Source of the DNA: Paenibacillaceae bacterium
Lineage (GTDB): Bacteria; Bacillota; Bacilli; Paenibacillales; NBRC-103111
Reading direction: 5' to 3'
Length of the DNA: 42,322 nucleotides
NCBI GenBank assembly: GCA_029256065.1
Contig: JAQSYT010000004.1
Coordinates: 1 to 42,322 of the forward strand
Positions 24,087 to 32,553 of the stretch are shown here, one piece after another. Position 1 is the first letter of the stretch; each line of letters opens with the position of its first letter. The translations under genes were made by a program, and so were the position numbers. The notes beneath the pieces are model-generated. The model was given only the letters and a program-made list of their open reading frames with translations. It was not told where the DNA came from and searched no databases.

Positions 24087-24776
24087 CTACAGCAGCAAGG
24101 GAACGATCCAGGGTGCCGTACACAGGGTGAAGAAGGCGGTAAGAATCATGGCTACCGTAGAGACAGAGCCGGAGGCGGAGCTGAGCTCGAAGGCCTTGGT
24201 GGTGCCGACTGCATGGGCGCTGGTGCCCAGAAGCACACCGTGGGATACATCGTTCTTAAAGCGGAAGAAGCGGATAACCACAGGCCCCAGCACCATGCCG
24301 AGCACCCCTGTAGCCAGCACGAAAACGGCTGTAATGGCGGGAATACCGCCGATGAGTCCCGAAACGACCACGGCGATGGGAGTGGTGGCGGAGCGGGGGG
24401 CAATGCTGTCGATAATCGCCAGGTCCAGATGGAGCATCTTGGCTGCCCAGGCGGTACTGACAATCGCTACAGTAGACCCCGTAAGCACACTAATCAGAAT
24501 GGAGAGGGCGTGCTTTTTCATCACATGGCGGTTTTTGTATAGGGGAACGGCCAATGCCACCGTGGCGGGACCGATCATATTGCTTATGTAGCGGGTGCCC
24601 TCATGGTACGTATTGTAGGGGATATCCGTGAAGGCCAGAATGATGATAACCAGAAGCGGTGTCAGAATAACCGGGGTAAACAGCACCCGCCGGTGGGACT
24701 TGTAAAAGGTTTTGGAGCCGAAATAGACCAGCACGGTTAAGATAAAGCAGCTTATTCCCAGGATCATGACTGTCAC
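24087..24776 (-). CDS. lrgB: LrgB/CidB-family membrane protein
   Basis: A 229-residue integral membrane protein with about six to seven helices, matching LrgB/CidB. The family signature is seen in the middle: PRSATTPIAVVVSGLIGGIPAITAV and VLGMVLGPVVIRFFRFKND, ending with HAVGTTKAFE. It overlaps the LrgA gene by four bases (ATGA), so translation is coupled. In Staphylococcus and Bacillus, LrgAB affects murein hydrolase activity and programmed lysis and takes part in pyruvate transport (B. subtilis PftAB). Regulation is probably by the divergent LysR gene. Confidence 0.93.
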   Translation of the reverse strand: MTVMILGISCFILTVLVYFGSKTFYKSHRRVLFTPVILTPLLVIIILAFTDIPYNTYHEGTRYISNMIGPATVALAVPLYKNRHVMKKHALSILISVLTGSTVAIVSTAWAAKMLHLDLAIIDSIAPRSATTPIAVVVSGLIGGIPAITAVFVLATGVLGMVLGPVVIRFFRFKNDVSHGVLLGTSAHAVGTTKAFELSSASGSVSTVAMILTAFFTLCTAPWIVPLLL

Positions 24777-25135
24777 TTCCCTTCATGGGCCGACAGCTTC
24801 TCTGCGATCAAACCCGTTATGACCATAACACACAGTATGCTGAACACAATGACCAGGGTAATCCGTAAGCCATTCTCCAGCATTAAATCCTTGTATTCCA
24901 CAATGCCTACTACCGGAGGGATGAAAAACAGCAGCATCTCGGCCAATAGCCATTTGGAGCCCAGGTCCACCCATTCCAGCTTGATCACCTTGAAGTGCAA
25001 TAGCGCAAACAACAGCACAATTCCTACGATACTTCCCGGAACCGGCAGATGAAGCGCGGCAGTGACGGCGTTGATCAGCATGGAATATAGAATGAAGCAG
25101 ATCACCTGGCCGAACCCCCGTAATAATGGCTTCAT
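24773..25135 (-). CDS. lrgA: LrgA/CidA-family holin-like membrane protein
   Basis: A 120-residue holin-like protein with four hydrophobic helices. Signature motifs: LHLPVPGSIVGIVLLFALL near 30-48 and KWLLAEMLLFFIPPVVGIVEY near 63-83. The ATG at 25135 (MKPLLRG) has AAGGAGGG ten bases upstream; upstream in-frame codons lack a ribosome site and would cover the divergent promoter. It pairs with LrgB. Expected operon partner in control of lysis or pyruvate movement; the exact activity is not visible from sequence. Confidence 0.92.
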   Translation of the reverse strand: MKPLLRGFGQVICFILYSMLINAVTAALHLPVPGSIVGIVLLFALLHFKVIKLEWVDLGSKWLLAEMLLFFIPPVVGIVEYKDLMLENGLRITLVIVFSILCVMVITGLIAEKLSAHEGK

Positions 25136-25151
25136 GAAGAATCCCTCCTTT

Positions 25152-25176
25152 TGAAAGTGTACATCATGTGCTTTCA
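25152..25176 (+). promoter_or_regulatory. Inverted repeat between lrgAB and lysR (operator candidate)
   Basis: TGAAAG-N13-CTTTCA (25152-25157 and 25171-25176) is a perfect 6-bp inverted repeat with near-symmetric CAT/ATG within, placed between the two divergent starts. It resembles a LysR-type recognition site in spacing. It overlaps the lrgA leader, close to the ribosome site. Confidence 0.5.
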
Positions 25177-25236
25177 TTGGTAAAATGAATGAATCGAATG
25201 ATTTCCATTCCATTTAGCTATAGCGGGAGGACACCT

Positions 25237-26151
25237 ATGGATATCCGTCATATGCAATATGTTCTGGAGCTGGCACGAAGCGGGAGCTTCACCCGGGCAG
25301 CCCAATCTCTTCATATTACTCAGCCCACCCTAAGCAAGGCGATCAAGAGCCTGGAGGAGGAGCTGGGGGTGGAGCTGTTCAAGCGGGACGGCAAGCGGAT
25401 CGAGCTTACGGATGCGGGCAGAGCCATCACCGTACAGGCCCATAATATCACCGAAGCCTTCCATAATCTCACGCTGGAGCTGGAGGATCTGACCAATTTG
25501 AGCAAGGGGGCGATCCGCATCGGCATTCCTCCGATGGCAGGGTCCAGCTTTTTTCCCCAGGTGCTGAGGCAGTTTCGGCAGAAATATCCCGGTCTGGTGA
25601 TTCAAATGGTGGAAGACGGGGCAAAGAAGCTTGAGACCAAAGTGGCTGAGGGCAAGCTGGATGTGGGGGTGGTCCTTCTTCCGGTGGATGAGGAGCGGTT
25701 TGATTCCTTCACGGTGGTGAAGGAGCAGCTGAAGGTGATTGTGCAGGCCAACCATCCCTTGGCGGACAGTGGCTGCGTGCCCCTGCAGAAGCTGGCGGAG
25801 GAGCCGTTCATCCTGTTCAAGGAGGAGTTTGCCCTTCATGACCGGATTATCGCGGAATGCCAGCGGGCTGGCTTCAAGCCGAACGTCCAGTATGAAAGCT
25901 CCCAGTGGGATTTCATTTATGAGCTGGCTGCGGCGGGGCTCGGTGTGGCCATGCTGCCGGAAACCATCTGCCGGTCGCTGGATACGCACAGAGTCGCCGT
26001 GCTGGACCTGGTAGAGCCGCAAATTCCGTGGCATTTGGGGATGATCTGGGGTAAAAAGAGCTACCTGCCTTTGGCGGCCAGGGAGTGGGTGCGGTTTACC
26101 CGGGGAATCTTCGGGGAGAACGAACCCCCCAAAAGTGAAGAGAAGCGCTGA
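25237..26151 (+). CDS. LysR-family transcriptional regulator (CidR-like, divergent to lrgAB)
   Basis: 304 residues from ATG 25237 (GGGAGG at 25225-25230). The winged helix-turn-helix is at about 1-60: MDIRHMQYVLELARSGSFTRA and ITQPTLSKAIKSLEEELGVELF. The effector-binding domain spans about 90-290. The divergent arrangement with lrgAB matches CidR/YwbI, which activates cidAB/lrgAB-type genes in response to acetate or pyruvate overflow; that link is inferred. Its last ten codons and the TGA stop lie inside a copy of the 58-bp repeat (26126-26183), so the C-terminus PPKSEEKR is repeat-derived. Confidence 0.9.
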   Translation: MDIRHMQYVLELARSGSFTRAAQSLHITQPTLSKAIKSLEEELGVELFKRDGKRIELTDAGRAITVQAHNITEAFHNLTLELEDLTNLSKGAIRIGIPPMAGSSFFPQVLRQFRQKYPGLVIQMVEDGAKKLETKVAEGKLDVGVVLLPVDEERFDSFTVVKEQLKVIVQANHPLADSGCVPLQKLAEEPFILFKEEFALHDRIIAECQRAGFKPNVQYESSQWDFIYELAAAGLGVAMLPETICRSLDTHRVAVLDLVEPQIPWHLGMIWGKKSYLPLAAREWVRFTRGIFGENEPPKSEEKR

Positions 26152-26185: not shown

Positions 26186-26213
26186 AAAACAAAAAGCCCG
26201 GGAAGCCCCGGGC
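26186..26213 (-). terminator. Terminator of the dehydrogenase-PilZ gene (minus strand)
   Basis: On the minus strand GCCCGGG-GCTT-CCCGGGC (26213-26196) is followed by TTTTTGTTTT. It lies about 36 bases beyond the stop of the minus-strand gene at 26249. Confidence 0.85.
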
Positions 26214-26248
26214 CAATGTTAGACGGCAAGCTGTGGGACAGGTCCCGA

Positions 26249-27499
26249 TCAGCCCTCATGCCGCTTGATATAATGCTCCAGCTTGATCCGGGTATAAGGC
26301 GGCAATCCCGATAGCATACAGCCGTAGCGGAATTGACCTTCGCGGGAGTCAATGCGGATAATCTTGCCGGTAATGGGAGGCAGATCAGCCTCCTTAGGGA
26401 AGTGGATCACCACGAACATATCCTGGGCTAATGGGAAAGCCGAGCTGATCTGCAGCCCGCTTTCGGACAGGTCATGGAGGGTTCCTTCAATATTCTGCCC
26501 CGAGAAGCTGCCTTCCTGCTCCCACTGGTACACGGACAGGTGCAGCTTGATACCCAGGCTGATCCGGTTGGCGCCGCGGCGCTCCTTCTCTGCCGGTGCC
26601 GTCCTGTCGCCGGAGGGGGCAATGGTGAGCTTCATCCAGTCCTCATAGCATTGAATGACGGAGGATAAGTCCTGGTCACCCAACCCCTTGGCCAGGCCCA
26701 TCTGGAAAATGGAGGTGGCTGCATGGAGCAGCGGTGCAGGAAGCTGAAAGCCTGCCGTCAGCTTCTGGGCCAGCAGGAGATCCTTCAGCATCAGGGCAGT
26801 GGAGAACTGGTTGGAGAAATCCCGCTGAATGATCTTATTGCCCTTCAGCTCCGCCTGCCGGCTGTTAGCGCCGCCGGCGGTGACGATCTCCAGGAATTTC
26901 TCCGGAGAGAGGCCTGCTTTGGCCGCGATGGAGAAGCCCTCCATCAAGCCGATGGCATTGATGCCCACGATGGTATTGTGGGCCAGCTTGGCGTAGGAGC
27001 CGGAGCCGCTGTCGCCCATATACAGGGATTTGCTGCCCAGCACCTCGAACAGGTCCAGATGCTCCTCGTAGGTGGCGGCATCACCGCCCACCATGAACAC
27101 CAGAGAGCCGCTCTCCGCCGCAGGCTTGCTGCCGGTTACAGGGGCATCCAAGAAGAAAGCCTGCTGCGCCTTCAGCTCTTCGGCAATTCGGGAGCTGGTG
27201 GCAGGAGAGACGGTGCTGCAGTCAATTACTGTGAGTCCCGGCCGTACGCCCTCCAGAATACCCCCGGGTCCATACACGACCTCCAGTAATGCATCATCAT
27301 TGCTGACATTAGTAAAAATCACATCCGCATGGCGTGCAGCCTCCGCAGGAGTGGCCGCCTCAAGGGCGCCAAGCGCTTTCAACTCCTCGCGCTTGGAGGC
27401 CGTGCGGTTATAGCCGTATACCGTATATCCGCTTTTGAGCAGATTGACAGCCATGGGCATTCCCATGGTGCCAAGCCCGATAAAACCGATGGTTTTCAT
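26249..27499 (-). CDS. Beta-hydroxyacid dehydrogenase fused to a C-terminal PilZ domain
   Basis: A 416-residue two-domain protein. Residues 1-295 are an NAD(P)-dependent 3-hydroxyisobutyrate dehydrogenase-type enzyme: Rossmann motif GLGTMG (8-13), substrate motif DAPVTGSKPAAESG (118-131), catalytic lysine K171 in SYAKLAHN. Residues about 303-416 form a PilZ domain with both c-di-GMP motifs intact: RGANR (308-312, RxxxR) and DLSESG (343-348, DxSxxG). PilZ domains bind c-di-GMP, so the enzyme may be allosterically controlled or tethered by that messenger. The oxidised substrate is unknown; related enzymes act on hydroxyisobutyrate, tartronate semialdehyde or glyoxylate. The ATG at 27499 follows AAGAGGTGACAT. 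A single open frame with no break argues that the fusion is real. Confidence 0.93.
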   Translation of the reverse strand: MKTIGFIGLGTMGMPMAVNLLKSGYTVYGYNRTASKREELKALGALEAATPAEAARHADVIFTNVSNDDALLEVVYGPGGILEGVRPGLTVIDCSTVSPATSSRIAEELKAQQAFFLDAPVTGSKPAAESGSLVFMVGGDAATYEEHLDLFEVLGSKSLYMGDSGSGSYAKLAHNTIVGINAIGLMEGFSIAAKAGLSPEKFLEIVTAGGANSRQAELKGNKIIQRDFSNQFSTALMLKDLLLAQKLTAGFQLPAPLLHAATSIFQMGLAKGLGDQDLSSVIQCYEDWMKLTIAPSGDRTAPAEKERRGANRISLGIKLHLSVYQWEQEGSFSGQNIEGTLHDLSESGLQISSAFPLAQDMFVVIHFPKEADLPPITGKIIRIDSREGQFRYGCMLSGLPPYTRIKLEHYIKRHEG

Positions 27500-27557
27500 C
27501 TATGTCACCTCTTGTCCTTATCTTACCATGCGCCCGGAAGTATGTGAAAGACCTTAC

Positions 27558-27746: not shown

Positions 27747-29096
27747 ATGAGCGGAAAATTGCAGTTTGATTACAGCAAAGCATTGGGCTTTATCGGCAAG
27801 CATGAGGTGGACAACCTGGCAGGCGCTATCAAGGCCGCCCACGATGACCTGCACAACGGCACCGGTGCCGGCGCAGATTACCTGGGTTGGATTGATCTTC
27901 CGGTGAATTATGACCGGGCGGAGTTCGACCGGATCAAGAAGGCAGCCGAAAAAATCCAGTCTGATTCGGATGCGCTGGTCGTCATCGGGATCGGCGGCTC
28001 CTATCTGGGAGCCCGTGCCGCCATCGAAATGCTGACGCATTCCTTCTATAATATTCTCCCGAAAGACAAGCGCAAGACGCCTGAGATTTATTTTGTCGGC
28101 AATAATATCAGTTCTACATATACGTCGCATCTGCTGCAGCTTCTGGACGGCAAGGATATCTCCGTCAACGTGATCTCCAAGTCCGGCACCACCACGGAGC
28201 CGGCTATCGCCTTCCGGATCTTCCGGGAGCTCCTGGAGCGCAAATACGGTAAGGAAGGCGCCCAAAAGCGGATCTACGCCACCACTGACAAAGCCCGCGG
28301 AGCATTGAAGAAGCTGGCTGCCGAGGAAGGCTACGAAACCTTCGTGATTCCGGATGATGTGGGCGGACGCTACTCCGTGCTGACTCCTGTAGGTCTCTTG
28401 CCCATTGCCGCAGCCGGCGTGGACATCGATGCCATGATGCAGGGTGCAGCTGAAGCCAGAACCGATTATTCCAGCCCTTCCGTGGCCGAGAATGAAGCCT
28501 ACCAATATGCAGCGGTGCGCAATGCCCTGTACCGTAAAGGCAAAACCACCGAAATTCTGGTGAACTATGAGCCTTCCCTGCACTTTGTGTCCGAGTGGTG
28601 GAAGCAGCTCTTCGGCGAAAGTGAAGGCAAGGATAACAAGGGAATCTACCCGTCCTCCGTGGATTTCTCCACAGATCTGCACTCCATGGGCCAATTCATC
28701 CAGGAGGGCAACCGCAACCTGTTCGAGACTGTCATCCAAGTGGCGGAAGTGCCGTATCACCTGACCATCGGCACCGATCCTACGGATCTGGACGGACTGA
28801 ATTTTCTGAGCGGCAAGACCATGGATTTCGTCAACAAGAAGGCGTTCCTGGGCACTCTCTTGGCCCACAGCGACGGTGGTGTTCCGAATCTGGTGGTGAC
28901 CCTGCCGGATATGTCCCCGTACACCTTCGGCTATATGGTCTATTTCTTCGAGAAGGCCTGCGGCGTCAGCGGCTACCTCTCCGGCGTCAATCCGTTTGAC
29001 CAGCCGGGTGTGGAAGCGTACAAGAAGAACATGTTCGCGCTTTTGGGCAAGCCGGGCTTCGAGAAGGAAAAGGAAGAGCTGGAGAAGCGCCTGTAA
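27747..29096 (+). CDS. pgi: Glucose-6-phosphate isomerase
   Basis: Interconverts glucose-6-phosphate and fructose-6-phosphate in glycolysis. 449 residues, as in the short Bacillus-type enzymes. Diagnostic motifs: [17 protein letters not shown] (about 74-90), [16 protein letters not shown] (about 143-158, phosphate binding), [14 protein letters not shown] (about 209-222), [12 protein letters not shown] (about 310-321) and [15 protein letters not shown] near the C-terminus with the catalytic lysine. ATAAGGAGG before the ATG at 27747. Its leader contains a diverged repeat copy. Confidence 0.98.
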
Positions 29097-31257: not shown

Positions 31258-32475
31258 TTACTGCTGTCCCACAAGCTCCGCCCAGGCAGGCGGGGTGTAG
31301 GCGCAGGCGGGGTCGCTGCCCATATAATCGCCGGTGGCGGTATAGGCCCGGGCTCTGGAGCCGCCGCACATGCGGCTGTAGTCGCAGACGCCGCATTTGC
31401 CGGTGTACAGCTCCGGCGAGCGGATGGAGGTGAAGACCGGATGGTTCCGGTACACATCGGACAACTTCTCCTCCCGCACATTGCCGCAGACGAGGGGAAG
31501 GAAGCCGCTAGGGGATATTTCTCCCGTATGGGAGATGAAGACGAACCCGCTGCCGTCGGTGACGCCCCGGGGGGCCCGCATGGCGGCTTTGCCATCGCCC
31601 GCTCCGAAGGGGCTGCTGCTGCGCTGCGCGTGAGGATGCCCTGCCGCTGCGTGCGGTTGCCCGGCTGCCGCAGCGAAGGGATGTTTGCCGGTGGCGGTAG
31701 CCAGCTCCGGTACCCCCAGCATTCGCCCGGCTACCTCGCCGGGATGGCGTCCCGCCGCCTTGGCCCGTTGGTCCAGGACCCGGCGGTAGAAGGGGGCGGC
31801 GGTGGTTTTCACGCCGAAGGGCACCCGTTCCCCCAGCTCCGCCAGCCAATGAAGAATTTCCTCGCCCTCCTCAGGTGAGATCATGTCGTCATCCTTGCCT
31901 CTGCCCGTGGGCACCAGGAAGAACACACTCCACATGACCACACCCATTTCTGTCAGCAGGCTGGCGATGTTGGGCAGGTCGTTTTTGTTATGTACGCATA
32001 CGGTGGTGTTGATCTGCAAAGGCATTCCCAGCTCGCGGAGATACTTAAGTGAGCGCATGGTCAGGTCGAAGGAGCCGGAGGCGCCACGGAACCGGTCATG
32101 AATGGCGGCAGTGGAGCCGTCCAGGCTGAAGGCCCAGCGGTCAAGGCCGATCTCGGCCGCTTTTTTCATGGAATCGCTCGTGACCCGTGGAGTTGCGCTA
32201 GGGGTCATGGATACCCGGAGGCCGATGCTTTTGCCGTAAGCGGCCAGCTCGAACAAGTCCTCCCGGATCAGCGGGTCGCCGCCGGTAAACACGAAGATAG
32301 GCGAATCCATGCTTTGGATTTCGTCCAGCAGGCGCTTGCCCTCCTCCGTGGACAGCTCGTCCGGATGGCGCCGGTGCTGCGCTTCCGCCCGGCAATGCAC
32401 ACAATGCAGGGCGCATGCCCGGGTAATTTCCCACACTACAATAAATGGATTACGGTTAAAATCAACAGGCATCAT
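31258..32475 (-). CDS. Radical SAM/SPASM protein (heme-d1/AhbD-NirJ-like)
   Basis: A radical SAM enzyme of about 405 residues. The 4Fe-4S motif is CALHCVHC (CxxxCxxC) near residue 24, with the SAM-binding GGDP near 67. A C-terminal SPASM domain carries further cysteines (KCGVCDYSRMCGGSRAR and SDPACAY) that bind auxiliary Fe-S clusters. It resembles the TIGR04053 group related to heme d1 and alternative heme synthesis. An insert of about 65 residues rich in Ala, His, Pro and Gly (LDQRAKAAGRHPGEVAGRMLG on through GQPHAAAGHPHAQRSSSPFG) separates the two domains. ATG 32475 (MMPVDFNRNPF) has AAGGGGG nine bases upstream; ATG 32484 is too close to it. It is divergent from the next radical SAM gene. 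Confidence 0.85.
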   Translation of the reverse strand: MMPVDFNRNPFIVVWEITRACALHCVHCRAEAQHRRHPDELSTEEGKRLLDEIQSMDSPIFVFTGGDPLIREDLFELAAYGKSIGLRVSMTPSATPRVTSDSMKKAAEIGLDRWAFSLDGSTAAIHDRFRGASGSFDLTMRSLKYLRELGMPLQINTTVCVHNKNDLPNIASLLTEMGVVMWSVFFLVPTGRGKDDDMISPEEGEEILHWLAELGERVPFGVKTTAAPFYRRVLDQRAKAAGRHPGEVAGRMLGVPELATATGKHPFAAAAGQPHAAAGHPHAQRSSSPFGAGDGKAAMRAPRGVTDGSGFVFISHTGEISPSGFLPLVCGNVREEKLSDVYRNHPVFTSIRSPELYTGKCGVCDYSRMCGGSRARAYTATGDYMGSDPACAYTPPAWAELVGQQ

Positions 32476-32553
32476 ATCCGTCATCCCCCTTGGGTTCATT
32501 TTCCAAAAACCGCTTGTTAACAGTCTTACCATATCAAATCCGAAATCATTCCA

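Follow-up and report, generated by a model that had tools for sequence, protein, structure and literature searches.

One gene in the 42,322-nucleotide stretch of Paenibacillaceae DNA analysed here (the window) joins a complete beta-hydroxyacid dehydrogenase to a PilZ domain that carries both c-di-GMP motifs. The product is probably, though by no means surely, an NADP(H)-dependent beta-hydroxyacid dehydrogenase or small-aldehyde reductase of the glyoxylate/succinic-semialdehyde/tartronate-semialdehyde type, in which the C-terminal PilZ domain would act as an allosteric c-di-GMP receptor. One of the two roles proposed in a preliminary description of the sequence, control of a metabolic step by c-di-GMP, is the best-supported reading, considering that the ligand motifs are kept, that the PilZ half is the more constrained, and that the enzyme is retained after PilZ loss.

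The preliminary description had joined both halves in a single frame at 26249-27499, and this frame was recovered intact; it lies on the minus strand, which had not been given, and the plus strand over 26249-27499 is interrupted by stops (Table 1). GLGTMG (residues 8-13), K171, RGANR (308-312) and DLSESG (343-348) are likewise where they had been placed. The Pfam profile search assigned residues 331-412 to PilZ (PF07238) with 41.5 bits against a curated cut-off of 22.5 (E 1.8e-10). The gene seems to form a stand-alone unit, judging from the flanking promoter-like and terminator-like consensus matches (two promoter-like matches against a shuffle mean of 1.0, and three terminator-like matches against 1.7).

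Table 1. Coordinates in the window of the fusion gene, its parts and the adjoining features
Feature	Position	Strand	Description and basis
Fusion gene, complete	26249..27499	-	416 aa, ATG start; divergent from pgi
Dehydrogenase half, aa 1-288	26636..27499	-	Pfam, alignment; pLDDT mostly >90
Linker, aa 289-306	26582..26635	-	Length and sequence variable; model confidence low
PilZ domain, aa 307-416	26252..26581	-	Pfam and model; six strands, C-terminal helix
RxxxR c-di-GMP switch motif (RGANR), aa 308-312	26564..26578	-	Sequence, alignments
DxSxxG c-di-GMP motif (DLSESG), aa 343-348	26456..26473	-	Sequence, alignments
Terminator-like stem and T-run	26195..26214	-	Directly 3' of fusion-gene stop; consensus match only
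Promoter-like site	27520..27548	-	5' of fusion-gene start codon; consensus match only
pgi, glucose-6-phosphate isomerase	27747..29096	+	Divergent neighbour of fusion gene, upstream

The N-terminal half shows the hallmarks of the beta-hydroxyacid dehydrogenase superfamily (PF03446 plus PF14833), namely the GxGxxG motif, the DAPV(S/T)G substrate loop, the catalytic lysine and asparagine, and the KD motif. They are laid out on a Rossmann domain (residues 3-162; NAD_binding_2, E 4.5e-48) and a helical C-terminal domain (165-284; NAD_binding_11, E 7.3e-28), with T96, T122-G123-S124, K171, N175, F232, K239 and D240 present, together with the cofactor loop N31-R32-T33. This loop follows the second strand and, as we take to be the rule in this family, points to NADP(H), so that a preference for NADP(H)/NADPH is suggested. 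The catalytic and substrate residues of plant GLYR1 (AtGLYR1) include Thr95, Ser121, Lys170, Asn174, Phe231 and Asp239 (PMC5399074). At an offset of +1, taken from the alignment with 3pef and not with 3doj, T96, K171, N175, F232 and D240 are identical and S121 is replaced conservatively by T122. The equivalent residues were invariant or nearly so in fused and unfused orthologues alike.

By sequence and fold, the enzyme resembles 3-hydroxyisobutyrate dehydrogenase less closely than it does the NADP(H)-dependent gamma-hydroxybutyrate dehydrogenase/succinic-semialdehyde, glyoxylate and tartronate-semialdehyde reductases. The Geobacter gamma-hydroxybutyrate dehydrogenases (3pef, 3pdu) and GLYR1 (3doj) are alike in fold and catalytic set, but none of the three has a PilZ domain. 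The first of them, 3pef, shares 40% identity with the window enzyme, fits its model with an rmsd of 1.1 A, and was solved with NADP+ bound at a similar N-R-S/T loop. Tartronate semialdehyde reductase, also without a PilZ domain, provided the best Foldseek match (1vpd, 36% identity) and the top NCBIfam scores, although these were far under the cut-offs (TIGR01505, 220.8 bits against an equivalog cut-off of 340.75; NF008592, 232.5 against 397). The 3-hydroxyisobutyrate dehydrogenase model TIGR01692 scored 198.3 bits against an equivalog cut-off of 291.6. All substrate-specific NCBIfam cut-offs were missed, so that these scores name no substrate. The enzyme had been called 3-hydroxyisobutyrate-dehydrogenase-type; that it is a complete member of the superfamily holds, whereas the specific label does not.

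Modelled alone (pLDDT 88), the tail formed a barrel of six strands followed by a helix at the C-terminus, and this predicted PilZ fold matched solved PilZ domains with Z up to 12.6. The best fold matches were all c-di-GMP-binding PilZ proteins (BcsA, PP4397, MotI, YcgR, Alg44 and MrkH; Z about 11-12.6), and the rmsd to the c-di-GMP-bound structures of BcsA, PP4397, YcgR and Alg44 was about 2.5 A. A sequence-profile search of the PDB with the tail returned nothing significant, although the fold comparison was clear. In the full-length AlphaFold2 model, built from 48 sequences, mean pLDDT was 90, and residues 300-311, which contain most of the RxxxR motif, fell below 50. BcsA also has RxxxR in a flexible linker ahead of the barrel (review PMC12564702). 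It resembles the window protein further in joining an enzyme to a PilZ domain on the C-terminal side, with DxSxxG in the barrel (Z about 12 to our model), but it is a membrane-bound glycosyltransferase that makes polysaccharide, whereas the window protein is a soluble oxidoreductase. YcgR, MotI and PP4397 share the PilZ fold and c-di-GMP motifs; unlike the window protein, they carry another small barrel as N-terminal partner, and their known target is the flagellar motor.

Considering that the window's genome is a draft of 492 contigs and 79% completeness, an assembly or frame artefact that fused two genes had to be weighed, and the preliminary description had itself named an assembly error as what would overturn it. 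Another genome of the same genus contains a full-length copy with 96% identity. About half of 60 related genomes had fused full-length matches without internal stops; most of the remaining strong matches covered only residues 1 to about 300, one of the shorter matches (genome G047) proving to be fused on inspection. We then used aligned PilZ tails as the query for a scan of 84,980 species genomes and analysed the best 80 of 90 confirmed matches. At all 80 loci, a single reading frame ran from the dehydrogenase into PilZ, and both RxxxR and (D/N)xSxxG were present. These best 80 came from Paenibacillus-type organisms, except one metagenome-assembled genome (MAG) titled Bacilli; nearly all were Paenibacillus, joined by Gorillibacterium, Gordonibacillus and two MAGs. 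The fusion is thus common to at least about 80 Paenibacillus-type species. Since several fused records are complete chromosomes, and the identical architecture occurs in isolates from many species, a join created by the draft is excluded and the artefact was rejected as having next to no probability; the fusion stands as the genuine, unusual architecture that had been proposed. Outside the order, no fusion was found among the strong matches in 300 genomes of the class and 299 of the phylum, which stopped near residues 290-306. The tail scan detects close relatives of this tail only, and independent PilZ-dehydrogenase fusions may exist elsewhere.

The divergent pgi gene adjoined the dehydrogenase gene in all 34 same-order loci compared, whether fused or unfused, mostly with yigZ past pgi and tkt-ppnP on the opposite side, and this arrangement was lacking in 5 of 5 loci outside the order. 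This shared setting indicates that the fused and unfused genes of the order are orthologues. Neither a conserved partner gene nor a conserved membrane gene was found in the neighbourhoods compared. Downstream of the fusion gene, a convergent cidR-like gene follows; lrgA-lrgB, together with this CidR-like LysR regulator, which is divergent from them, occupy 24087-26151 of the window, between ppnP and the fusion gene. Among the compared loci, this set of genes was present at the site only in the window's genus and did not lie here in the others. Elsewhere in the window, 31258-32532 (minus strand) encodes a radical SAM-like protein with CALHCVHC near its start and, in mid-protein, a His/Ala/Gly-rich stretch (about GKHPFAAAAGQPHAAAGHPHAQ) with the look of an insertion.

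In a maximum-likelihood tree built from the dehydrogenase half, all fusions fell into one clade of the order (46 rows, support 100/99), which also contained 16 unfused rows; the unfused proteins of other orders fell outside. The distribution of fused and unfused proteins needs seven changes, four of them forced by well-supported branches alone. With the base of the clade unresolved in this tree, the simplest reading would be one ancient fusion close to the root of the order, followed by about six losses of PilZ. In the unfused orthologues, the active site was unchanged and the enzyme intact. Searching the unfused genomes with the tail (E 0.01, without a positive control) revealed no fused-type PilZ as a separate gene; these genomes do carry other PilZ genes.

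The selective constraint on the two halves was compared in 23 species pairs, one of them counted twice. Median dN/dS was 0.055 for PilZ and 0.076 for the dehydrogenase, with the PilZ value lower in 20 of the 23 pairs; dS was obtained by simple counting and is underestimated for distant pairs, which affects both halves alike. The linker evolved much faster than either half (median dN 0.136, against 0.039 for the dehydrogenase and 0.025 for PilZ). When 30 fusions were aligned, 24 of the 110 PilZ columns proved invariant. PilZ is no less constrained than the dehydrogenase, and both halves are under selection; the low dN/dS and the invariant columns mark a domain in use.

The window's genome had 18 GGDEF and 4 PilZ matches, and every fusion-bearing genome counted had at least five GGDEF domains. 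We rejected the idea that PilZ retention tracks GGDEF number, since fused and unfused genomes showed no overall difference (P 0.30); the difference within the family (P 0.02) weakened to P 0.18 per megabase, in statistics that ignore relatedness. Therefore, the PilZ half was lost in several lineages where c-di-GMP signalling is rich. GGDEF is missing from a single genome, a member of the same family (G011, 2.4 Mb, 99% complete); its enzyme is unfused and PilZ of any kind is absent, an apparent total loss of c-di-GMP signalling in one family member. This single case is suggestive but does not amount to a correlation. Two further genomes drew attention: a small one of the same order (G046, 2.7 Mb) has an expanded PilZ set, with 17 PilZ against 7 GGDEF matches, and in another (G047:C33:9975-10244) a PilZ match within a 669-codon open frame is a possible further PilZ fusion.

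The c-di-GMP-tuned enzyme may be pictured as follows. At low c-di-GMP, the RxxxR-bearing linker would be disordered and the enzyme would run at its basal level. With rising c-di-GMP, R308 and R312 together with D343, S345 and G348 would clamp the ligand, upon which the linker would become ordered and fix the PilZ barrel at a different position relative to the dehydrogenase; alternatively, the oligomer might change. Either event would alter turnover, with the RxxxR linker as the switch. Here we infer the binding of c-di-GMP, the effect on catalysis and its sign, and the substrate. A docking surface on the dehydrogenase was not evident, as the conserved positions specific to fused proteins were few and within the range of shuffling (5, against a shuffle mean of 1.2 and a maximum of 6).

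The flexibility of the linker is also compatible with action of the PilZ domain on a separate partner, and PilZ domains often work in this way. The PilZ half could bind c-di-GMP and pass its output to another protein, the dehydrogenase being an NADP(H)/hydroxyacid sensor or a dimerising platform, so that metabolism would control the PilZ output; this is the second role offered by the preliminary description. The length and variability of the linker are in keeping with it, as are the matches of the tail to the structures of MapZ-CheR1 and MotI, where PilZ acts through a partner, and the PilZ residues conserved outside the ligand motifs (among them E329, G330, F332, E370, A371, L373-P375 and Y392-C394), which could form a partner surface. 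However, no catalytic residue is missing and the enzyme survives by itself where PilZ was lost, so that catalysis seems to be the main function, and we regard a partner-directed output as unlikely, if worth keeping in mind. It is quite improbable that c-di-GMP determines where the enzyme sits, how stable it is or how it oligomerises, and not its turnover, with PilZ as a tether or scaffold. The linker is flexible, and whole-protein pTM reached only 0.70 despite two well-modelled domains, in line with such a role, but the neighbourhood contains no conserved gene for a partner or a membrane protein. The roughly sixfold loss of PilZ, and GGDEF counts that do not follow its presence, would suit a ligand-free structural appendage unrelated to c-di-GMP. 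This we consider very improbable, given that RxxxR and (D/N)xSxxG were kept in every fusion examined, in about 110 sequences across the order (some species counted twice).

Direct signal control of such an enzyme has a precedent in the Firmicutes, since the Bacillus subtilis oxidoreductase YkwC, of the 3-hydroxyisobutyrate-dehydrogenase family, is inactivated by PrkC phosphorylation at Ser281 (PMC6213207, PMC2965388). YkwC and the window enzyme belong to one superfamily, but in YkwC control is by phosphorylation, without a PilZ domain. PilZ-enzyme fusions are a known kind (PMC10333796), with BcsA and, in Leptospira, PilZ-PrsW (PMC12943098) as examples. The form with a soluble oxidoreductase was not described in the literature searched, and an earlier mention or a database listing may exist.

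The effectors of c-di-GMP known so far belong mostly to motility, exopolysaccharide, secretion and transcription. We see roughly an even chance that the fusion represents a c-di-GMP effector of a new class, in which the PilZ domain gates the soluble NADP(H)-dependent oxidoreductase that it is joined to, an enzyme of small-molecule metabolism, and which is conserved in several families of the order. The same-locus orthologues that lost PilZ are natural controls, so that a comparison of natural fused and unfused proteins can probe what the receptor half does. In Paenibacillus and its kin, the targets of c-di-GMP are little studied; in the literature searched, five papers bring PilZ, Paenibacillus and c-di-GMP together, and judging by title and abstract, a Paenibacillus protein is the focus of none of them. 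If the proposal is true, a PilZ-controlled oxidoreductase would tie c-di-GMP directly to small-molecule metabolism, and a second messenger of motility and biofilm formation would itself set metabolic flux or redox balance.
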